From positions 1-35,042 of IMG/VR virus record IMGVR_UViG_3300032561_000071: a DNA stretch of 35,042 bases. One strand, given 5' to 3'. This stretch comes from a virus. The notes below the pieces were generated by a model. That model did not search any database, was not told the origin of the DNA, and saw only the letters and a list, made by a program, of their open reading frames with translations. The position numbers were made by a program, and so were the translations under genes. Numbering within the stretch: the first letter of the stretch is position 1; each line of letters begins with the position of its first letter. Positions 3,546 through 21,610 of the stretch are shown piece by piece.

Positions 3546-4141
3546 TGACAACGCCTTCTTATTTCGGAAATTTTCCTAATACAGTTTATAATGGAACAAC
3601 TATTCCTAATATATTCATGCGAGTTAAATTTCTAGAAACGTTACGGCTGGCTTCATCTGTATATTATCCATATGTTATAGAAGAAGGAGAAACTGCTGAT
3701 GGCATCGCATCTTGGTATTATGGTAGTCCCGTTTATGATTGGGTAATTTACCTAGCAAATAATATCATAGATCCTTATAGTCAATGGCCCAAAACATCTG
3801 CTCAATTTTCAGATTATATTATTAAAACATATGGTAGTATACAAGCCGCTCAATCTGAAATATTATTCTATAGACGAGAGCCAGATATAGGATATCTATC
3901 TCCTGATGGTAGTCAATTTTCATCTTCTCCGCAACAGGGATATAATGTTGTGGTAAATAATACAGATTTAAGAATAACTCCATCATCATATGCTACTATA
4001 CAAGATCCGGCCAATTACTTTCCAGTATATGCGTATGATTATGAGAATGAACTTAACGAAAATAAACGTAATATATCACTCATAGATAAAAGTCTATTAC
4101 AACGAATTGTTTCTGAATTATCTGGATTACTAAATGCCTAA
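3545..4141 (+). CDS. 53: baseplate wedge protein, T4 gp53 family with LysM-like segment
   Basis: The 198-residue protein contains YVIEEGETADGIASWYYGSP followed by YDWVIYLANNIIDPYSQWP, the hallmark LysM-like region of T4 gp53 (196 residues). In T4, gp53 joins wedges around the hub and clamps them. The start overlaps the gp48 stop, and the C-terminus overlaps the gp27-like start by eight bases, so the genes are translationally coupled. Function assignment rests on the motif, length and place next to gp48 and gp27. Confidence 0.85.
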   Translation: MTTPSYFGNFPNTVYNGTTIPNIFMRVKFLETLRLASSVYYPYVIEEGETADGIASWYYGSPVYDWVIYLANNIIDPYSQWPKTSAQFSDYIIKTYGSIQAAQSEILFYRREPDIGYLSPDGSQFSSSPQQGYNVVVNNTDLRITPSSYATIQDPANYFPVYAYDYENELNENKRNISLIDKSLLQRIVSELSGLLNA

Positions 4142-14819: not shown

Positions 14820-15527
14820 TCAAATCAATGCGTTGTTACGAACATCATCAAACAGCTGGTCACGCAATAGTTCACCATCTGAATACACATCTTGCAAAAC
14901 ATCATCTTCTGCATACATCTCATATTTAACGGGATGGCTCTCCGTGGTATAAGTAAAAAACTTACTATCCCAATATGGGGTATGCTTAAGAATCATTCGA
15001 CCCTTCTTAGACCTTTTACCAGAATCAGTAAGAGGATCCTTATACACGTCAATCCATTCACCGTTGATAAATGCCGCCGAACACTTCATTGCAAACTTTT
15101 GATCGTCACGATTAACAATCTGTAGAAGAGCGCCGCCTTGGCCGAATGCCACATTATCAGCACTATAACCAATAGCAATAATAGCATTCAGAATTTCTTT
15201 GATAGTGTCAATAGTAATACCATCGCCTTGAATTACACGAACATTGTTGAGAACCTTATATCCTTTATCATTAATAGCATGCCCAAAATGATAATCAAGG
15301 ATTCGGATGCAGCTTTCTACCACTGTTGCTGGATCGCCACTATCTGGGCGGATAACGGTAAACCCACCAAGTTCTCCGTTCAAGATAATCTTCTGTTTAA
15401 TTTCAGGATCAGTTCCTAGGAGTTCGCAAAACTCAAAAATATTATAAGTATCTCCTACTATTGCAAAAGTCTTACCACCGGTGCCAAAATTGTCAATCAT
15501 CGTGTTAATGTAGGTTCGTTCACTCAT
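14820..15527 (-). CDS. nadV: nicotinamide phosphoribosyltransferase, C-terminal half (split NadV/NAMPT)
   Basis: The 235-residue protein starts MSERTYINTMIDNFG; AAAGGA eight bases upstream supports this ATG, which overlaps the endonuclease stop. It carries the second half of NAMPT: AIVGDTYNIFEF, GGFTVIRPDSGDPATVV with the Arg and Asp that bind the substrate, VIQGDGITIDTIKEIL, VAFGQGGALLQ, DPLTDSGKRSKKGRM. Laid after the N-half it lines up with human NAMPT without lost residues at the junction. It can only work together with the N-half, since active-site residues are divided between them. Reaction: nicotinamide plus PRPP to NMN and pyrophosphate. Confidence 0.85.
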   Translation of the reverse strand: MSERTYINTMIDNFGTGGKTFAIVGDTYNIFEFCELLGTDPEIKQKIILNGELGGFTVIRPDSGDPATVVESCIRILDYHFGHAINDKGYKVLNNVRVIQGDGITIDTIKEILNAIIAIGYSADNVAFGQGGALLQIVNRDDQKFAMKCSAAFINGEWIDVYKDPLTDSGKRSKKGRMILKHTPYWDSKFFTYTTESHPVKYEMYAEDDVLQDVYSDGELLRDQLFDDVRNNALI

Positions 15528-16603
15528 TTTATATTTCCTTTCCAATCAACTAGTTTAAAAGAGCATCCATTAAACTTAGCGTTTCTTTTTGAATAACTAT
15601 TATATGTGCCTTCTTTGATGGCTATGTTCCATACCCCTTCAGTGCATCTATGTTCTCTCAAAAATGAACCTTTATTACCACAAAAGGTAAACAAAAGATT
15701 GTCTACCGGGGAATAGCATTCTATTTTCTTGTCAGTAGCCTTCATGTGAATACTAGGATCATACTCATCGCAGTTGATATTCACAAACTTATTCAGTTCT
15801 TTAATAAAGACTGTGACCATCCCCTTTGTTGTTCCATGATCAGGTTTCCTATTTTCTTTGGACGCCAGTGTTGAGTATCTATCCTTATTATGGTAATATT
15901 CTTCGGTTGTTACATGACATATTTTATCAGTGAAGGAGTCTTTTACAGTAACCTTACCTGCATGAATGCCATTAAGTTCATGATTGTCTTCTGTAGTTGC
16001 ATATCTTCGCATTCCAGCATCATCTATTACTTTCCCTCCAAACACCTTAACATGAACACTAGGATCAAACATGCTAACTGGCATGGAACTTGTTTCTCCT
16101 GTTTCAATAACTCGTACACTAACTTTGCCAGACGATGCGGTGCGATATAGATGTTTATTGTTTCGGTATTCCTCTACGGAAACTCTACAAACACCACCAG
16201 ATGATATTTTTATAACCCGAACACTGTTGCTAGTAGGATAAGCATGAATAGTAGAATCAAACTCATCTTTTGGAATCCTGAAATAAGTTGAATCTTCTAG
16301 CAATCTAACAACAACCGTATTTTTAGTATTCCACCCTCTGCCTCCGGATATTATATTATAAGTATCTACCCTTTTCACGAAATCTTCATTTACAAGTTCC
16401 GCTTCTTTGTTATTCATCTCATCAAACGAATCATACATGTATAATATGCGTCTGCTAAACGCATGAACACCGTATTTTAACAAGGCATTAGTAAAACGAG
16501 TCCCGGAACCAAGATATCCATCATCAATGTTGGTAGTAGAATGCTGTCCAACATATATCATACCATTGATAGTATTTGTAGTTTCGTATATAATATAAAA
16601 CAT
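15524..16603 (-). CDS. GIY-YIG homing endonuclease inserted in nadV
   Basis: The ATG at 16603 has GGAG upstream; the protein has 359 residues. Residues 1-90 form a GIY-YIG nuclease: FYIIYETTNTINGMIYVGQH, YLGSGTRFTNAL, and the glutamate in NNKEAELVNEDFV. Residues 105-300 hold about five repeats of roughly 35-45 residues with the pattern VxVxD...V..EEY...H, likely DNA-contacting modules, and a final ECYSPVDNLLFTF/CTEGVWNIAIKEG segment resembling NUMOD modules. The gene separates the two nadV halves and shares its last bases with the C-half start. It would cut nadV alleles that lack the insertion and spread itself. Confidence 0.85.
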   Translation of the reverse strand: MFYIIYETTNTINGMIYVGQHSTTNIDDGYLGSGTRFTNALLKYGVHAFSRRILYMYDSFDEMNNKEAELVNEDFVKRVDTYNIISGGRGWNTKNTVVVRLLEDSTYFRIPKDEFDSTIHAYPTSNSVRVIKISSGGVCRVSVEEYRNNKHLYRTASSGKVSVRVIETGETSSMPVSMFDPSVHVKVFGGKVIDDAGMRRYATTEDNHELNGIHAGKVTVKDSFTDKICHVTTEEYYHNKDRYSTLASKENRKPDHGTTKGMVTVFIKELNKFVNINCDEYDPSIHMKATDKKIECYSPVDNLLFTFCGNKGSFLREHRCTEGVWNIAIKEGTYNSYSKRNAKFNGCSFKLVDWKGNIK

Positions 16604-16637
16604 TTTTAAGTATGCTCCATTGCAGTAACACACTTAT

Positions 16638-17342
16638 TTAGTCCTTTTGGTGACTTGCACTTATAGAATGTTCGCTAGCAGGAATACTAAAACCAGCCAT
16701 ATCAGCACCATAATACCGACGAGCATACAAAAGAGCTTCGATAGTGTCAGTACCCATGAAGTTGATAAGATGGGCAGATCCGCCAATTCCAGCAGATTCC
16801 AAACTAGATACGCCACGAGCGCCGAAATCGTGCAATTTAAAATTAATATCAGCGGGTGTGCCAGTATGTTCAAGAGCATCCAAAATCACCTTCTTAATTT
16901 CACGACTATTGGTTGCTACTGTTGTAGGATACCAAATCGAACGAAGAATAGCAGTTTCAAGAAAACTTGTCAACCAATAACATTTTGGATCTGTGTTGAT
17001 GATAGTCGCCAACACATTACGAACAGGAATAACCATTCCCTCTGGAACTGCCTTAATATGAACAGGAAGGCAACCATTATGAGCATGAAGAATATATTCC
17101 CATCCTTCACGGTTAAATGGTTCACCATGGGCAGTAATAATGGCCTCAGCTTCATCAATCATGTCTTGGGTAATAGGTGCAAGCAAGTATTCCTTGATAA
17201 ATGCTTGGAGGCCAAAAAATACGGTTTCATCATACTTTCCACCCCTACTCTCGATATAACTGTAGATATATTCGGTGTTAGGAGGATATTGATTGAACTG
17301 GCTGTACTTATACGAATCTGCGTTAAGAATAATATTTTTCAT
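16638..17342 (-). CDS. nadV: nicotinamide phosphoribosyltransferase, N-terminal half (split NadV/NAMPT)
   Basis: The 234-residue protein opens MKNIILNADSYKYSQFNQYP and continues with YIESRGGKYDETVFFGLQAF, IKAVPEGMVIPVRN, FLETAILRSIWYPTTVATNS, FKLHDFGARGVSSLESAGIGG, FMGTDTIEAL and FSIPASEHS, all landmarks of the first half of NAMPT, including the active-site His in EHS. It stops after SHQKD where an intact enzyme would continue. Full-length enzymes have about 470-490 residues; 234 plus 235 adds up to that. Translation is driven by AAAGGAG in the loop of a hairpin leader shared with nadM. Confidence 0.85.
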   Translation of the reverse strand: MKNIILNADSYKYSQFNQYPPNTEYIYSYIESRGGKYDETVFFGLQAFIKEYLLAPITQDMIDEAEAIITAHGEPFNREGWEYILHAHNGCLPVHIKAVPEGMVIPVRNVLATIINTDPKCYWLTSFLETAILRSIWYPTTVATNSREIKKVILDALEHTGTPADINFKLHDFGARGVSSLESAGIGGSAHLINFMGTDTIEALLYARRYYGADMAGFSIPASEHSISASHQKD

Positions 17343-17400
17343 AGTAGCAAAACTCCTTTGCTTGTTAATGATCTTGGTCTGTCCTAGATCAGTCGTTATT
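17343..17400 (-). promoter_or_regulatory. two-hairpin leader of nadV (shared with nadM)
   Basis: Reading the minus strand: a CTAAATAA motif resembling a late promoter, then hairpin 1 (17391-17369; arms TGATCTAGG and CCAAGATCA, loop ACAGA, one mismatch), six bases, hairpin 2 (17362-17346; stem AGCAAA with TTTGCT, loop GGAGT), three bases, ATG. The ribosome-binding site is the loop of hairpin 2. The same plan occurs before nadM. Confidence 0.65.
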
Positions 17401-17710
17401 TAGGCGAAAACTTAAAAACCGCATCATAATTTTCATTCCATCCGGGAGAATCATATACTACAGTCCAACCCTGTTGTCTATAAATTTCTTCAATATCAAG
17501 ATAATTATTTTCGAATATTTCTACTCGTGTCATCCCAGATTTAATGAGCTTTTCTATAATTGTATTTTGAGAAATTGTAAATGGTCTATTATTAAATTCC
17601 TTAACAATTAACTCATTAACAGTTTCGATAACAATTTGAGGAATATAATGGACTTTACTAGATAAAGCTTCTTTTGGTGAAATAGGAAGTATATGTCTAG
17701 ATGTTACCAT
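17396..17710 (-). CDS. conserved phage protein of unknown function
   Basis: The 104-residue protein has IPQIVIETVNELIVKEFNNR, FTISQNTIIEKLI and a C-terminal YRQQGWTVVYDSPGWNENY-type end. I recognise this plan (IPxxVIExVNELI, then GWxVxYDxPxxNE) from many T4-superfamily phages; no function is known. It is coupled to the macro-domain gene (TAATG overlap) and lies just before nadV. Confidence 0.65.
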   Translation of the reverse strand: MVTSRHILPISPKEALSSKVHYIPQIVIETVNELIVKEFNNRPFTISQNTIIEKLIKSGMTRVEIFENNYLDIEEIYRQQGWTVVYDSPGWNENYDAVFKFSPK

Positions 17711-18177
17711 TATTCAAACTCCACTAAAGTTACCGAGCCTCCTTGCTCTGTTATCACCTTAGCAAAATCTTCTAGCATAGTCAAGATACGATTTTTATCT
17801 CCACCAGCAAGACCCATTCCGATATAAGGAAATCCAAATCTAGCTTTACTAAGTGTAGTAAGCTTCTTTAGAATAAGATAGAAGCTCTCATACTCGAAAT
17901 GATCAATGCCACGAGGCGTATAGTGGACCTGAGTGTATGCATTGATCACGATGAAATTAAAAGTTGTATACGAGCTAAAGTTGCCAAGCTTAGCGACAGG
18001 ATTCTTCCACTGTTGAGATGCCAAACAATCAGCATCATATGCACCCGGATATCTTGCACGAATTTCCTTGGCAATGCCCCCTGCCATTGTGTTTTGACAG
18101 TTGCAACCATGTACGATAACATCAAACTCACCTTGTTCGGCAAGATCAATAAGGTTTCCTTTGGTATGTTTAAGCAT
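17710..18177 (-). CDS. macro-domain protein (ADP-ribose binding or hydrolase)
   Basis: The ATG at 18177 (MLKHTKGNLIDL) is the natural start; the longer frame would need TTG. The 155-residue protein is one macro domain: VIVHGCNCQNTMAGGIAKEIRARYP (binding loop 1 with the conserved N and the GIA turn), FIVINAYTQ, and FPYIGMGLAGGDKNRIL (loop 2). Such domains bind ADP-ribose or hydrolyse Appr-1''-P and related esters. Sitting in the NAD-salvage island, it may clear or capture ADP-ribose products made by host defences; this is inference. Confidence 0.8.
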   Translation of the reverse strand: MLKHTKGNLIDLAEQGEFDVIVHGCNCQNTMAGGIAKEIRARYPGAYDADCLASQQWKNPVAKLGNFSSYTTFNFIVINAYTQVHYTPRGIDHFEYESFYLILKKLTTLSKARFGFPYIGMGLAGGDKNRILTMLEDFAKVITEQGGSVTLVEFE

Positions 18178-18364
18178 TGTTCTGACTTTCAATTTTTCGA
18201 ATTTTCGGCTTCATATTTTCATAAATTATATGACGACAAGCGGCTAATGAAAATGGGTTGTAAGGAACAAAACATCCTCCTGAACCATCATCATTCAGCG
18301 ACCATCTAGAACAAAATTCTATACAATCACATTCAACACGATCTGTTGTTTTATCATTTATCAT
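18170..18364 (-). CDS. small cysteine-rich protein
   Basis: The 64-residue protein has five cysteines (VECDCIEFCSRW, GGCFVPYN, ACRHIIYE), possibly a metal site. GGGAT precedes the ATG. The end overlaps the macro-domain start by eight bases. Not recognised. Confidence 0.5.
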   Translation of the reverse strand: MINDKTTDRVECDCIEFCSRWSLNDDGSGGCFVPYNPFSLAACRHIIYENMKPKIRKIESQNNA

Positions 18365-18385
18365 AAAATTTATCCCAAATTGCGT

Positions 18386-18426
18386 TTCGGAATCGAATAT
18401 GGTGGTAAATTATATTCGATTCCGAA
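18386..18426 (-). repeat. perfect 15-bp inverted repeat at the end of the mazG-like gene
   Basis: TTCGGAATCGAATAT (18386-18400) and ATATTCGATTCCGAA (18412-18426) flank an 11-base loop. It spans the last codons and stop of the mazG-like gene. No U-tract follows, so it may be an mRNA-processing or stabilising hairpin rather than a terminator. Confidence 0.6.
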
Positions 18427-18709
18427 CCTCATCATCCCATTTGCAAAAGGTTTTGTATTTCTTAGTAGACTGTTCTACAATTGCGATCGATTGAGAAAAA
18501 TTGAAATTATTGGCGACAAAGTAATTCAAAGCAGCGTATACGTCACCGATTTCTTCGATAAACTTTTCATTAAGATCGCCAGACCAATGATCAGTCTTGC
18601 CTTCAGATCCAATCAGCTTTCCGCAAACTTGTTGCAGTTCACCCAATTCTTCGATCAGCTTGGACAACCCGTTCCATTCGCTTGATCCTATACAATATGG
18701 TTTAGTCAT
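18410..18709 (-). CDS. MazG-like nucleotide pyrophosphohydrolase
   Basis: The ATG at 18709 overlaps the upstream stop (CCATGA) and follows AGGA; the longer frame would use TTG. The 99-residue, all-helical protein has KLIEELGELQQVCGKLIG (E20, E21, E24) and NEKFIEEIGDVYAALNYFV (E53, D56), the ExxE..ExxD magnesium motif. MazG-like enzymes split NTPs to NMP and pyrophosphate; in phages they may shape nucleotide pools or alarmone levels. It belongs to the operon leading to the macro-domain protein and nadV. Confidence 0.75.
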   Translation of the reverse strand: MTKPYCIGSSEWNGLSKLIEELGELQQVCGKLIGSEGKTDHWSGDLNEKFIEEIGDVYAALNYFVANNFNFSQSIAIVEQSTKKYKTFCKWDDEVRNRI

Positions 18710-19050
18710 GGCCAATCCTGCGCTTTCTTACGTTCAAATTCACGTAGCATTTTAGCATTTTTTTGTTTTAAACGAATGCTTCTTTCATATTCTTTATCCA
18801 TATTAATAAAAAATTTCTTTTCCTCACATGTTAGATCTATGTTGAATAGAGTATCTCTATCTGCTAAAATTGCGCCTCTCGTCAATGTTACAGTTTTCCA
18901 GAAGAATCCATAAACACAAACACGCCAATTATCGTTTATATTACGAATTCTATCTTTATTGACATAATAGCTCGTTTCATGCCAATTATCCCATAAGATA
19001 TCATATCCCTCATTTTTAATTTGGTTTATAACAAATTGTGCAAATCTCAT
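18706..19050 (-). CDS. phage protein of unknown function
   Basis: The 114-residue protein (MRFAQFVINQIKNEGYDILW, then EEKKFFINMDKEYERS, RLKQKNAKMLREFERKKAQ) ends in a basic helix. AAAGGAT precedes the ATG. Coupled to the mazG-like gene. No family recognised. Confidence 0.55.
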   Translation of the reverse strand: MRFAQFVINQIKNEGYDILWDNWHETSYYVNKDRIRNINDNWRVCVYGFFWKTVTLTRGAILADRDTLFNIDLTCEEKKFFINMDKEYERSIRLKQKNAKMLREFERKKAQDWP

Positions 19051-19073
19051 TTTTCTATCCTTTATTCACATAT

Positions 19074-19217
19074 CTAATTCAAGCTAAACCAAAGATATCT
19101 GTTGGTATACTCGTTATAGATATCAATGCCTTCCTTTAACTTATATAATGTAAGTCTTTTATCTGGAAGCTTACGAGTTATAATAGCTTTAAGTTTAAAA
19201 TAATCTAAATCTGACAT
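19074..19217 (-). CDS. 47-residue protein of unknown function
   Basis: MSDLDYFKLKAIITRKLPDK followed by RLTLYKLKEGIDIYNEYTNR. AAGGT precedes the ATG. The ATG overlaps the stop (TAATG) of the frame that ends the gene upstream, which supports that frame as the genuine C-terminus of the broken gene. Confidence 0.5.
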   Translation of the reverse strand: MSDLDYFKLKAIITRKLPDKRLTLYKLKEGIDIYNEYTNRYLWFSLN

Positions 19218-19542
19218 TACTCGACCTTATCTAATATATCAAGAATTTCTTTTTCAGTTGCCTCATCATCATTATAATCTTCGTTAATAAACTTAACTGG
19301 ATCACCTATCTTAAATTTATTAATTTGTTCTTGTAGAAAAGTATATATATCAATGGTGATAAAATATCACTAGAACCATAATAATTACTTTTCTGTAATA
19401 TCTTTTTACGTAAATCACATGTAGTATAAGCTTCTATTTTATCTCTTACATTTCTAGTCTCATTATAAAATTCTACCATCAATTTTTCAGTATTAGAATC
19501 TATTAATACTTTGAATAACTTATCTTGGAACTTAATATACAT
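19217..19542 (-). pseudogene. gene broken by a frameshift
   Basis: The first frame (MYIKFQDKLFKVLIDSNTEK, then RKKILQKSNYYGSSDI) runs out into an unlikely tail and stops at 19306. A second frame, open from about 19360 to the TAA at 19219-19217 without an ATG, reads DIYTFLQEQINKFKIGDPVK, then EDYNDDEATEKEILDILDKV, with good coding character. One base missing near the TTTT at about 19361-19366 would join them into one protein of about 117 residues. It is either a real inactivation, a sequencing error or, less likely, a programmed shift. Function unknown. Confidence 0.55.
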
Positions 19543-19602
19543 AATTAATCACCTTAATAATTTACTTCATAAATACATTAACTAATCTTTAATTTATAAC
19601 GA

Positions 19603-19914
19603 TCAGTTAGACTTTTCAGTTAAACTGCAAACTGAATCAATATTGTCTGTTTCAATAAGCTGCCATCCATTATATGCATTCCAAATAGCAAATCTTCCAT
19701 CAAACTGTCCTCCATGTAATTTTTGTATTTTCGTATCTCCACAAATTTTAACTATTGTGGAAGATACAGGTAACTTATATTGTTCTTCCACAGTTTCATT
19801 TTCATTTCCAGCTAGATTACGATATGGGGGATTGCCGATGTAATACCCAGAAGAGGCGTCATCATCACAACCAGAAAGAGTTAAACATATTAATATCATA
19901 ATAAAGTATTTCAT
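19603..19914 (-). CDS. lipoprotein
   Basis: MKYFIMILICLTLSGC is a signal sequence with lipobox LSGC (Cys16). Residues after the cysteine are DDD, which in many Gram-negative hosts favours the inner membrane. The mature part has two more cysteines (IVKICGDT, DSVCSL) that could form a disulfide, and a FAIWNAYNGWQLIE segment. Not recognised. It shares the MKYFIM start with the exported protein at 8282-8482. Confidence 0.65.
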   Translation of the reverse strand: MKYFIMILICLTLSGCDDDASSGYYIGNPPYRNLAGNENETVEEQYKLPVSSTIVKICGDTKIQKLHGGQFDGRFAIWNAYNGWQLIETDNIDSVCSLTEKSN

Positions 19915-19963
19915 AACTAATTCCTTAATAATTTACTACTGCTTGTCCAATTTTTAAATTTAT

Positions 19964-20449
19964 TCATGGCAATGTTTCCGGGTAATAATGTGTTTCAACC
20001 ACATTTTTGCATCTATCACATAAGCCAGTTTCATTGTCAACAATTTTATATCGTTTCCAACACCTAGGGCATTTTAGATCTAAATTTATAAAATGTAATG
20101 CGCCGAGTTTAACTTCGCCACAATTAGCAATATTACAATCGGAAGGAAAGATTCCTGATGGTATACAGACGATATCTTCAATACTAGCTCCTCTGCCTAC
20201 AATATCAGACAGTTCGCCAGATTGATTATCCATATCGAGCATAATAGCTACATCAAACATATTGGTATAAAATATCCATCCAATATCTTCAGCCTTTGTA
20301 ATTTTATTTTGCTTTCTGATATTCATGTCTAATTTGCTCGCTGCGTTATCAATTAAATCTCGCAATATTTTCTTCACATCAAATTCATGAAATTCAATAT
20401 CTTGATGTTTGTCCATCAAATTAGTATCAGTGTCAAAAAGTAGACGCAT
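19964..20449 (-). CDS. protein with C-terminal IleRS/FPG-type zinc finger
   Basis: The 161-residue protein ends LKCPRCWKRYKIVDNETGLC then DRCKNVVETHYYP. CPRCW...LCDRC is the zinc finger found at the C-terminus of isoleucyl-tRNA synthetase and in FPG/Nei glycosylases. The N-terminal 120 residues (FHEFDVKKILRDLIDNAASK, FDVAIMLDMDN, LGALHFINLDL) resemble the region before the finger in IleRS only loosely. AGGAG precedes the ATG. It is coupled to nadM (GTATGA overlap). Role unknown; nucleic-acid binding is plausible. Confidence 0.6.
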   Translation of the reverse strand: MRLLFDTDTNLMDKHQDIEFHEFDVKKILRDLIDNAASKLDMNIRKQNKITKAEDIGWIFYTNMFDVAIMLDMDNQSGELSDIVGRGASIEDIVCIPSGIFPSDCNIANCGEVKLGALHFINLDLKCPRCWKRYKIVDNETGLCDRCKNVVETHYYPETLP

Positions 20450-20452
20450 ATA

Positions 20453-21550
20453 TCATACTCCTAGGAAGAAATTGATAATATGAAAATGATCATCAAAAAG
20501 CATATCTTCACGAAGTTCCCCGATAGGGATCCACTTTGCTTTTTCAGCATCATCCGCACCTTTGACCTTAGGCAATTTTACATCATCTGTCAACTTGAAA
20601 TGGGCAGCATGAGTGATAACCCTACCCAAAGTAGATCGATGCACATCATCGAACACATGTTCGCCTACTTGACAACCACGGATAACCTTTTCAGGAACCT
20701 TAATAAGAGTTTCTTCCTTAAGTTCACGAAGGATACCATCGGATATACGTTCATCCATCTCTAAATGGCCTCCCGGAAGTGCCCACAGCCCCTTTCCCGG
20801 CTCACTGCGGCGCTTTACCAACAGAATATGCCCAGATTGCTCTACAACAGCATCTACAGTAACATGTTTAACTGGATATGGTGCAGCTGCCCATGATTTC
20901 TTATATGCCTTTACGTGGACCAATTCCGACTTCAATTGGTCATACTCTGAGGTATGAATAAATCGGTCAAAGAGAAATTGTGCGCTCTCCTTAGGAAGAA
21001 GAGAATCTTGGACTTCCCATTTATGTAACCGTCCTTCAAGAAATCCTTCACGAATATTAGTTGCATGAATATCTCCATGAACATCCACATTCACGGATTC
21101 CCATTGGGGGAACAATTTAAGATAATATGAAGAATGATCTTTAGAGGCTCCAATCAAGCCTACTTTGGCATCAGCAGTTCCATGAAGATGAAATCCACCC
21201 TCATTAATGATATCAAGAGTTACATTATTAGCAATATCTTGAATTTGCTTAACCCACGCACTATCATTGTAAAGCTTATCATATAGAGGCTTAATAATAA
21301 GGCGACTGTTAGCAGTTTCTGTGGAATATCCAAATGGAATCCCTACATGATCTGAGAATACCTCAGAAATAACATTTTCTCGCTCTTGAAATGTAAAGGG
21401 GGTACGAATTGTACGTGCTTTACCAGCAGATCCAACCAAAACCAAGACATTTCTTGATTTCTCTAAAGCGGTTTGGATAACCTTGACATGGCCAAGGTGA
21501 AGAGGACTAAATCGCCCAATAAAAACCAATAGGTCAAATTCTTTATTCAT
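20453..21550 (-). CDS. nadM: bifunctional NMN adenylyltransferase / Nudix hydrolase (NadM type)
   Basis: The 365-residue protein has two domains. Residues 1-195: nucleotidyltransferase with GRFSPLHLGH at 12-21 and ATNIREGFLEG near 163-173, the motifs of NMN adenylyltransferase. Residues 225-365: Nudix domain with the box from G261 to I283 (GHLEMDE, then LRELKEE); the usual Gly near the end of the box is Leu. It makes NAD+ from NMN and ATP, and the Nudix part may degrade ADP-ribose. With split NadV this completes NAD+ salvage from nicotinamide. Its leader matches that of nadV. Confidence 0.85.
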   Translation of the reverse strand: MNKEFDLLVFIGRFSPLHLGHVKVIQTALEKSRNVLVLVGSAGKARTIRTPFTFQERENVISEVFSDHVGIPFGYSTETANSRLIIKPLYDKLYNDSAWVKQIQDIANNVTLDIINEGGFHLHGTADAKVGLIGASKDHSSYYLKLFPQWESVNVDVHGDIHATNIREGFLEGRLHKWEVQDSLLPKESAQFLFDRFIHTSEYDQLKSELVHVKAYKKSWAAAPYPVKHVTVDAVVEQSGHILLVKRRSEPGKGLWALPGGHLEMDERISDGILRELKEETLIKVPEKVIRGCQVGEHVFDDVHRSTLGRVITHAAHFKLTDDVKLPKVKGADDAEKAKWIPIGELREDMLFDDHFHIINFFLGV

Positions 21551-21610
21551 AGCTCAAAACTCCTTTGAGTAATTATGCAAAGAGTCTATCTCTAAGCATC
21601 GGTATTTATA
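21551..21610 (-). promoter_or_regulatory. late promoter and two-hairpin leader of nadM (shared with nadV)
   Basis: TATAAATA (21610-21603) is an exact late-promoter match. Three bases later comes hairpin 1 (21599-21575; arms ATGCTTAGAG and CTCTTTGCAT, loop ATAGA, two T-T mismatches), five bases, hairpin 2 (21569-21553; stem CTCAAA with TTTGAG, loop GGAGT), two bases, ATG. A transcript from this promoter would begin at the foot of hairpin 1. Confidence 0.65.

Follow-up and report, generated by a model that had tools for sequence, protein, structure and literature searches.

The 35,042-nucleotide virus record IMGVR_UViG_3300032561_000071, all of which is called the window here, carries two genes for the salvage of nicotinamide adenine dinucleotide (NAD), nadV and nadM, and each of these genes is preceded by a two-hairpin leader. 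The evidence from homologs confirmed that this shared leader element is real and settled the matter. As judged from the same comparisons, a selected RNA structure was shown to place the Shine-Dalgarno sequence in a weak hairpin, both on NAD genes and on the genes that head nadM operons. We consider it about 85% probable that the leader is a cis-acting translational operator on phage NAD-synthesis genes, belonging to a class that is unlisted in Rfam. The window is a complete record, which is possibly a fragment of its virus.

Two leaders with one plan in the window

Both leaders lie on the minus strand. The nadV leader spans positions 17344 to 17392, the nadM leader spans positions 21551 to 21599, and cmsearch with a covariance model (R1) scored them, with filters off, at 25.2 bits (E value of 0.0023) and 43.1 bits (E value of 3.4e-7), respectively. 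R1 was built from the leaders of 17 relatives, with the window copies excluded from building, and the two leaders were its sole credible matches in the window (the third-best match had an E value of 0.37). The minimum free energy (MFE) and centroid folds of both leaders consisted of exactly two hairpins. Thus, the folds and the R1 matches bore out the claim, made in an earlier note on this DNA, that the two NAD genes share one two-hairpin plan.

Hairpin 1 of the nadV leader (17369 to 17391, minus strand) has the pentaloop ACAGA at 17378 to 17382 and an A.A mismatch 2 bp below the loop, and hairpin 1 of the nadM leader (21575 to 21599, minus strand) has the pentaloop ATAGA at 21585 to 21589 and a 2x2 U.U/U.U internal loop 4 bp below the loop. 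The 5-base loops described in the earlier note were therefore correct, but the stem was imperfect in both copies. Hairpin 2 has 6 bp in both leaders, with the sequence AGCAAA-GGAGT-TTTGCT for nadV (17346 to 17362, minus strand) and CTCAAA-GGAGT-TTTGAG for nadM (21553 to 21569, minus strand); the loops, at 17352 to 17356 and 21559 to 21563, hold the Shine-Dalgarno sequences, and the gap to the ATG is 3 bases in nadV and 2 bases in nadM. The pentaloops, the GGAGT loop with the Shine-Dalgarno sequence, and the 2 to 3 bases before the ATG could all be read in the sequence as they had been described. In the case of stem 2, the pairs that differ between the copies do still pair, but the outer two pairs differ rather than the outer three: they are A-T and G-C in nadV versus C-G and T-A in nadM, and the third pair, C-G, is common to both. 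A CTAAATA box (17397 to 17403, minus strand), which we take to be late-promoter-like, ends about 5 bases before nadV hairpin 1, and a TATAAATA box (21603 to 21610, minus strand) ends 3 bases before nadM hairpin 1, so the expected spacing of 3 to 4 bases held for nadM but not for nadV.

The predicted fold energies were -12.6 kcal/mol for the nadV leader and -13.2 kcal/mol for the nadM leader, with z scores of -2.8 and -2.3, and 2 of 200 and 5 of 200 shuffled sequences, respectively, folded equally well. The only two occurrences of AAAGGAGTTT in the 35,042-base record were inside the two leaders. When the 13-base core of hairpin 2 was searched across the window with up to three mismatches, matches were no more common than in shuffled sequence. 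Taken alone, the shuffle test of the two window leaders was only moderate evidence.

Homologous leaders have compensated stems

Searches of IMG/VR with NadM and NadV yielded 18 loci plus the best 80 of 102 relatives, and a blastn search with the nadV leader as the query returned nothing useful. The leaders of the relatives mostly followed the same plan, with an ATAGA loop on a nearly free stem in hairpin 1 and a hairpin 2 built around AAGGAGTT. We aligned 17 of these leaders without gaps; the rows had equal loop spacing and were picked for having at least 4 bp in both stems. In this alignment, 90.3% of the cells were paired compared to 57.4% after shuffling, the covariation score was 0.831 compared to 0.191, and double changes were found at 12 of the 14 pairs; when the partner strand was slid by one base, pairing was 44%. 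Because the 17 rows were stem-selected, we added tests that did not select for stems. Similar values were obtained with 107 distinct R1 matches, the alignment of which was fitted to the model: 91.3% of the cells were paired compared to 55.2% after shuffling, the covariation score was 0.812 compared to 0.175, and double changes occurred at all 14 pairs (529 double-change cells).

The R1 scan covered both strands of the window and 96 loci (1,076,145 bases) and produced 154 matches with E values of 5 or lower, every one of which was on the strand of the NAD genes. Among the best 150 matches, 137 ended within 25 nucleotides of the start of nadV (82 matches) or nadM (55 matches), and two were the window's own leaders. 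As for the 11 others, five headed a small open reading frame (ORF) followed by nadM (L014, L043, L052, L083, and L084), five were nadM or nadV leaders for which the start had been set differently (L010, L028, L078, L089, and L011), and one, at position 5337 of L074, was unexplained and lay before a 106-amino-acid ORF, 612 nucleotides ahead of nadV. When the count was made by gene, with starts set by tblastn and overlapping loci counted separately, an R1 match was located directly upstream of 82 of 95 nadV starts and 55 of 82 nadM starts. Hence, the covariance-model search did find the further copies in homologous nadV and nadM leaders that would be expected of a shared element.

Gene-blind loop scans and a natural control

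To scan IMG/VR by loops only, a first pattern, GATAGAC-N16-26-AAAGGAGTTTT, was used, and only the loci from the scan were counted. It gave 74 matches in 71 stretches, and 58 of the 74 preceded nadV or nadM. The 16 matches that did not precede a NAD gene were divided between nine with two or fewer stem 1 pairs and seven with at least four; three of the seven well-paired matches were located before the C-terminal half of a split nadV, three were on small ORFs before nadM, and one (L147) was cut at the locus end. With four loop patterns, 241 of 306 distinct viral matches had nadM or nadV no more than 1.5 kb downstream, and 209 of these 241 had a good stem 1, among the matches listed. The count of 306 drew on all 576 loci, most of which could be found by IMG/VR scans anyway. 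A good stem 1 was present in 13 of the 65 listed matches that had no NAD gene: one coding stretch, present in copies, accounted for seven; four (L147, L460, L487, and L498) had fewer than 500 bases of downstream sequence; and two (L515 and L565) were unexplained.

The matches without a NAD gene served as a natural control. The loop patterns fix the first stem 1 pair and the innermost hairpin 2 pairs, and only pairs outside these were counted. In 181 distinct NAD-linked stems 1, pairs 2 to 9 were formed in 99, 97, 69, 62, 70, 87, 63, and 43% of the cases. The two pairs behind the loop-closing pair (the 99% and 97% above) were formed in only 32 to 42% of 170 unlinked matches. The mean number of pairs among the first seven of stem 1 was 5.47 in the NAD-linked group and 2.99 when partners were shuffled, compared to 2.57 in 60 unlinked viral matches and 2.70 in 110 unlinked bacterial matches, a set that still included the nadE copy described below. 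The next three pairs of hairpin 2 were formed in 87 to 100% of the NAD-linked matches and mostly in 27 to 67% of the unlinked matches. The exception was pattern B, for which two hairpin 2 pairs reached 73% and 91% in unlinked matches, a small set of which the repeated coding stretch makes up much. Since the stems were well paired only with a NAD gene downstream, pairing depends on the downstream gene. The stems of the homologs were thus compensated, both in the 107 R1 matches and in the NAD-linked pattern matches, rather than unpaired, and the proposal of a selected RNA element common to both NAD-salvage genes was strongly supported by the homolog scans and the compensated stems.

Distribution of the element

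In whole records, R1 matches with E values of 1 or lower were found in 19 of 22 phage records of 80 to 360 kb (exactly two matches in 15 records and none in three). All 16 members of a second set, which consisted of 15 further phage records and a Thalassospira genome, had R1 matches (exactly two in 14), as did 21 of 25 more records at E values of 0.5 or lower (exactly two in 15). In the records whose genes were read, the strong matches were at nadM and nadV. The two genes need not be neighbors: the leader-bearing nadM and nadV of record G412 are 39 kb apart, and the leader copies of G411 lie at 12.6 and 327.8 kb of a 350-kb record. Additional copies were located on a small ORF before nadM in G450, on a small ORF in G439, and, as an orphan, before an insertion in G438; a weak third match in G417 looked like chance. 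Small ORFs that lie between the leader and nadM, or that have a copy of their own, belonged to PHROGs 12218, 33851, and, weakly, 37251 (L657, 287 to 613; L658, 180 to 548; also L043, L409, and L410).

Altogether, the element was found on nadV, on nadM or whichever gene opens the nadM operon, and on one phage nadA and one nadE. The nadA case is in a 360-kb phage record (G017, position 37129; L111), where the leader precedes a gene with a Pfam NadA match of 2.1e-84; quinolinate synthase, the product of nadA, is an enzyme of de novo NAD synthesis, here encoded in a phage. A scan of genome contigs gave matches in at least 118 stretches, and the NAD-linked cases among the matches listed were nadM in two metagenome bins and nadE in Thalassospira xianhensis. 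In the latter (L313, 4098 to 7031), a phage-type nadM is followed by nadE (NAD_synthase, 1.2e-65), and each gene has a leader. The neighbors are presumably methylase-like, and the region may be an integrated phage. We also considered a bacterial chromosomal element. A search of 385 alphaproteobacterial genomes gave one match, directly after a phage-type nadM, with strict filters that also missed the Thalassospira copies. In this locus (L591, 456 to 1818), the element lies after nadM and before an 89-amino-acid ORF that we take to be LuxR-type; the ORF downstream of it is, we assume, transposase-like.

Four named phages carry the leader on both genes, namely RcXuper (Rhodobacter), DSS3P8 (Ruegeria), B23 (Synechococcus), and LucasX (Xanthomonas), and their genomes contained no other matches at E values of 2 or lower with strict filters. 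The Synechococcus phage BUCT-ZZ01 had one whole-genome match and a second, weaker match at nadV in its locus. In Ochrobactrum phage OC, two hairpins with the loops GGGGT and GGAGT were recognized by eye before both genes; the nadV leader scored 18.0 bits in its locus, and two weak whole-genome matches were elsewhere. Inspection by eye of RB16 nadM (L204, 3985 to 4001), Entb_46 nadV (L660, 215 to 237), and KVP40 nadM (L203, about 3975 to 3988) revealed a hairpin-2-like structure around GGAG only and no AUAGA hairpin. None of eight nadV starts in presumed NadV-only phages had a credible leader (best E value of 0.83), a comparison that is confounded by phylogeny. Four of these eight nadV genes follow a ribose-phosphate pyrophosphokinase gene (one annotated as a phosphoribosyl pyrophosphate transferase), and in another of the eight phages, CcrColossus, a cytidyltransferase (nadM-like) gene adjoins nadV. 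As far as sequence comparison goes, the element is a flag for NAD genes in unannotated phages.

Anatomy and translational geometry

Loop statistics were compiled from 81 leaders that were required to match RNNGA and GG[AG] and to have stems of at least 4 bp; the full conservation of the RNNGA and GG[AG] letters is therefore a result of leader selection. Loop 1 was ATAGA in 69 and loop 2 was GGAGT in 47 of the 81 leaders, and the loop-to-loop distance was 25 to 30 nucleotides in 73. The leader is about 50 nucleotides long, with an A-rich linker of 0 to 15 nucleotides. The loop of hairpin 1 is closed by a G-C pair, and firm pairs just behind the loop are followed by a stem that is free to vary. 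Outside of the pairs and the Shine-Dalgarno sequence, about seven bases are conserved (GAUAGAC), which amounts to about 11.5 bits, partly fixed by the search rule. The GGA starts mostly 9 to 14 nucleotides and the hairpin 1 loop lies about 34 to 44 nucleotides upstream of the start codon. Median predicted energies were -2.1 kcal/mol (hairpin 2) and -7.0 kcal/mol (hairpin 1), which makes the hairpin with the Shine-Dalgarno sequence only marginally stable.

A promoter-like pair of boxes was present in 66 of the 81 leaders, 63 of which scored well, and hairpin 1 started 0 to 15 nucleotides after the -10 box in 48 of the 63, counts that were made without a shuffled control. Because hairpin 1 is close behind the -10 box, it is probably near the 5' end of the messenger RNA (mRNA). 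Of 498 other Shine-Dalgarno-bearing ORFs, left after NAD ORFs were removed by a crude rule, five had a hairpin-2-like structure; two of the five had escaped the rule, one being a nadM and the other the head of a nadM operon. We also considered a general phage leader element, which had no support from the whole-record scans or this ORF background.

Two phages have look-alike loops, which are AAAGA and AAGGA in BUCT-ZZ01 (L587, 2420 to 2472 and 3766 to 3822) and GGGGU and GGAGU in OC (L589). Recognized by eye and in two phages, these pairs were a hint that one effector site might read both loops.

Relation to known RNA families and control systems

Rfam release 15 contained no credible match to the leaders. 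At the gathering threshold, two transfer RNAs were the only hits in the window, and permissive scans of two leaders returned sub-threshold noise only. We found no report of a phage NAD leader RNA among the papers listed in searches of the open-licence literature, subscription papers and preprints being outside the search, and the words phage, nadV, and nadM were absent from the text of PMC7749635 in a word search. Viewed against these collections, we rate the predicted operator, which is unlisted in Rfam, as a new class of translational leader control, itself a familiar kind of regulation. The earlier note had not recognized the leaders as either known NAD+ riboswitch class, and it was right in this regard, given the negative Rfam result and the different published structure of NAD+-II.

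The NAD+-I (nadA) motif is contained in Rfam, and we rejected membership in this class because no Rfam score in the window or the leaders was above the curated threshold. NAD+-I resembles the phage leader in heading a NAD gene and in being a translational OFF switch, but it has two similar NAD+-binding domains, and no Rfam family matched these leaders. Similarly, NAD+-II (pnuC) regulates an NAD-related gene and occludes the ribosome-binding site, and it is a pseudoknot (PMC10085692, PMC8632094). The reports describe P1/P1a, a pseudoknot to the ribosome site, an A5 minor-groove triple, and a conserved core. NAD+-II is reported upstream of pnuC in Streptococcus, and one paper adds Haemophilus influenzae. 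Membership in NAD+-II was rejected because the MFE and consensus folds of the phage leaders are two separate hairpins, as predicted by programs that cannot predict pseudoknots.

Two other systems are closer in layout. Guanidine-II (mini-ykkC) consists of two small hairpins with conserved loops and a variable spacer and acts most probably on translation (PMC5486947), and the phage leader likewise consists of two small hairpins joined by a variable spacer. In guanidine-II, however, the ACGR tetraloops dimerize and the loop-adjacent stems are conserved, whereas the loops of the phage leader differ from each other (mostly AUAGA and GGAGU), are not complementary, and sit on free stems. The T4 DNA polymerase, gp43, represses its own mRNA through a hairpin whose small, conserved loop lies about 40 nucleotides upstream of the start, plus sequence over the ribosome site (PMC3014915). 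The phage leader is likewise on the mRNA of a phage enzyme, with the hairpin 1 loop at a similar distance, but it has two hairpins, an AUAGA loop, and four target genes of one pathway. A T4 RegB site was also rejected: RegB needs an unstructured GGAG plus RAYARAA, and the leader GGAG sits in a hairpin and is followed by a U-rich stem. The RegB consensus GGAG-RAYARAA and the protection by structure are given in PMC3014915 as well.

A proposed mechanism and its alternatives

We propose that hairpin 2 alone would be too weak to shut translation and that an effector common to all leaders would recognize the loop of hairpin 1 and, jointly with that of hairpin 2, would keep the initiation region closed. 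The NAD genes would then be translated only when the NAD supply is low, which would amount to feedback repression. A candidate for the effector is NadM itself, which would act as T4 gp43 or PyrR do on mRNAs, and the signal might be a nucleotide bound to NadM, such as NAD+, nicotinamide mononucleotide (NMN), or adenosine triphosphate (ATP). PyrR is an enzyme-like protein of nucleotide metabolism that binds hairpin loops in several mRNAs of its own pathway; it acts mostly by attenuation and on loop sequences other than AUAGA, and the binding of NadM to the phage leader is, by comparison, only a proposal. As with gp43, the candidate effector's own gene, nadM, carries the element at its translation start region. 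With few conserved bases, a free stem, and an elastic linker, the leaders are more suggestive of a hairpin read by a protein than of a compact aptamer. Full-length NadM was found in all 21 records that had a model match and in none of four records that had no match, and in blastp searches RcXuper, B23, and LucasX had NadM and NadV in common and otherwise only a large protein and a shadow frame. NadV was rejected as the binding protein because the Thalassospira genome, with its two copies of the element, yielded no NAMPT_N match. We name NadM as an autoregulating effector tentatively, at somewhat less than even odds, and favor it slightly over an NAD-type riboswitch; the earlier note had allowed for either a protein-binding site or a riboswitch for NAD+, NMN, or nicotinamide.

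Several points weigh against NadM as the effector of a feedback operator. The NadM co-occurrence is partly circular because nadM itself carries the leader, and the four no-match records are a weak control because at least three of them (L340, L524, and L561) are chance pattern matches, with one stem 1 pair each. A further record with a loop-pattern match (G445) had no NadM match, although this 7.9-kb fragment is too short to tell. The three-phage comparison was made by plain blastp on ORFs that had been truncated wherever a 20-kb border fell, and it could have overlooked a small diverged regulator. The element is missing from several phages that encode NadM, namely KVP40, RB16, ACP17, phiM19, and DLP_6. 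The first three had no R1 match, phiM19 had none in the loci examined (nor did Mx1), and DLP_6 had one match of 13.8 bits. X1 has a hairpin-2-like structure, and its two leaders scored only weakly, at 18.2 and 14.9 bits. We know of no RNA-binding role of a bifunctional NMN adenylyltransferase/Nudix protein, and it is only by inference that the genes are taken to be off when NAD is high.

It is also possible, though we would not count on it, that the leader is a third NAD-type riboswitch, in which the RNA binds NAD+, NMN, nicotinamide, or a related metabolite directly, and that a loop-loop contact as in guanidine-II perhaps locks the Shine-Dalgarno hairpin. The gene association is restricted to one pathway, as for a NAD-sensing riboswitch: four of its enzymes (nadV, nadM, nadA, and nadE) carry the element, and small nadM-operon ORFs are also under the leader. 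The carriers infect Alphaproteobacteria, Gammaproteobacteria, and Cyanobacteria, and the near lack of common proteins among the three phages compared suggests that no trans-acting factor is needed. In addition, guanidine-II offers a precedent for two small hairpins being sufficient (PMC5486947). On the other hand, a pocket the size of NAD+ would be unusual with only about seven conserved bases, the linker varies from 0 to 15 nucleotides, the middle of stem 1 tolerates mismatches, and no kissing helix is evident because the loops are not complementary.

A site for a protein other than NadM, either a host global regulator of the CsrA/RsmA kind or a phage RNA-binding protein, is unlikely. CsrA/RsmA prefers GGA in loops, and a site pair has GGA in both hairpin loops. 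Hairpin 2 does present GGA in its loop, two hairpins about 27 nucleotides apart would suit a dimeric protein, and the look-alike loop pairs of OC and BUCT-ZZ01, seen by eye, fit this explanation. However, 69 of 81 leaders have AUAGA as loop 1, which contains no GGA and thus departs from a standard CsrA site. A global regulon would not be expected to stay within NAD genes as the element does, and the blastp comparison revealed no small protein common to three motif-bearing phages. Quite improbable is a general expression aid without sensing, in which the 5'-end hairpin protects the transcript and the Shine-Dalgarno structure is weak. The position of hairpin 1 close to the mRNA 5' end in 48 of 63 leaders would agree with such an aid, but the fixed AUAGA loop and the restriction to NAD genes would be left unexplained, and the hairpin 2 form occurs in only about 1% of other ORFs. 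A chance resemblance between two leaders in one genome might have been argued from the 2 and 5 of 200 shuffles that folded equally well and from the approximate hairpin 2 matches being as frequent in shuffled sequence; it was refuted by the homolog scans, the covariation, and the natural control, and its probability is negligible.

The restoration of NAD+ by phages is a known answer to NADase-based immunity, according to two reports (PMC9503650, PMC11984713). NadV and NadM make NAD+ from nicotinamide, and a translational operator on nadV, nadM, nadA, and nadE would time this phage answer. We think it reasonably probable that the leaders form a third class of NAD-responsive leader, and the first that is phage-confined, through which NAD would be rebuilt during infection just when host NADase defenses drain it; in one version, the sensor would be NadM as an RNA-binding repressor. 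If the RNA binds a NAD metabolite, then it would be a new riboswitch class, and if NadM binds the leader, then a metabolic enzyme would be a new RNA-binding regulator.

Window genes under and around the leaders

The gene under the nadM leader (20453 to 21550, minus strand) encodes an NMN adenylyltransferase fused to a Nudix domain (Pfam NUDIX, 7.9e-19; CTP_transf_like, 2.7e-8), and its closest relatives are annotated as NadM/Nudix. The gene under the nadV leader (16638 to 17342, minus strand) has NadV domains, namely NAMPT_N and the start of NAPRTase (Pfam PF18127, 9.6e-32; PF04095, 7e-14), but what the earlier note labeled nadV is only the N-terminal half (234 amino acids). The window nadV is split over 14820 to 17342 on the minus strand, with the N-terminal half at 16638 to 17342 and the C-terminal half at about 14820 to 15530. 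The halves are separated by a 369-amino-acid ORF (15524 to 16633) that had no Pfam match and that we assume resembles a GIY-YIG homing endonuclease; an RNA-family scan detected no intron RNA family in the insertion. The C-terminal half in the window has no leader copy of its own. A related phage (L176, 7022 to 9644; also L161 and L134) has the same kind of nadV insertion, with a two-hairpin leader of its own (47.0 bits) before the C-terminal half. Finally, a gene for a Macro-domain protein (17710 to 18192, minus strand; PF01661, 22.2 bits, barely above the cutoff) adjoins nadV upstream in the window.

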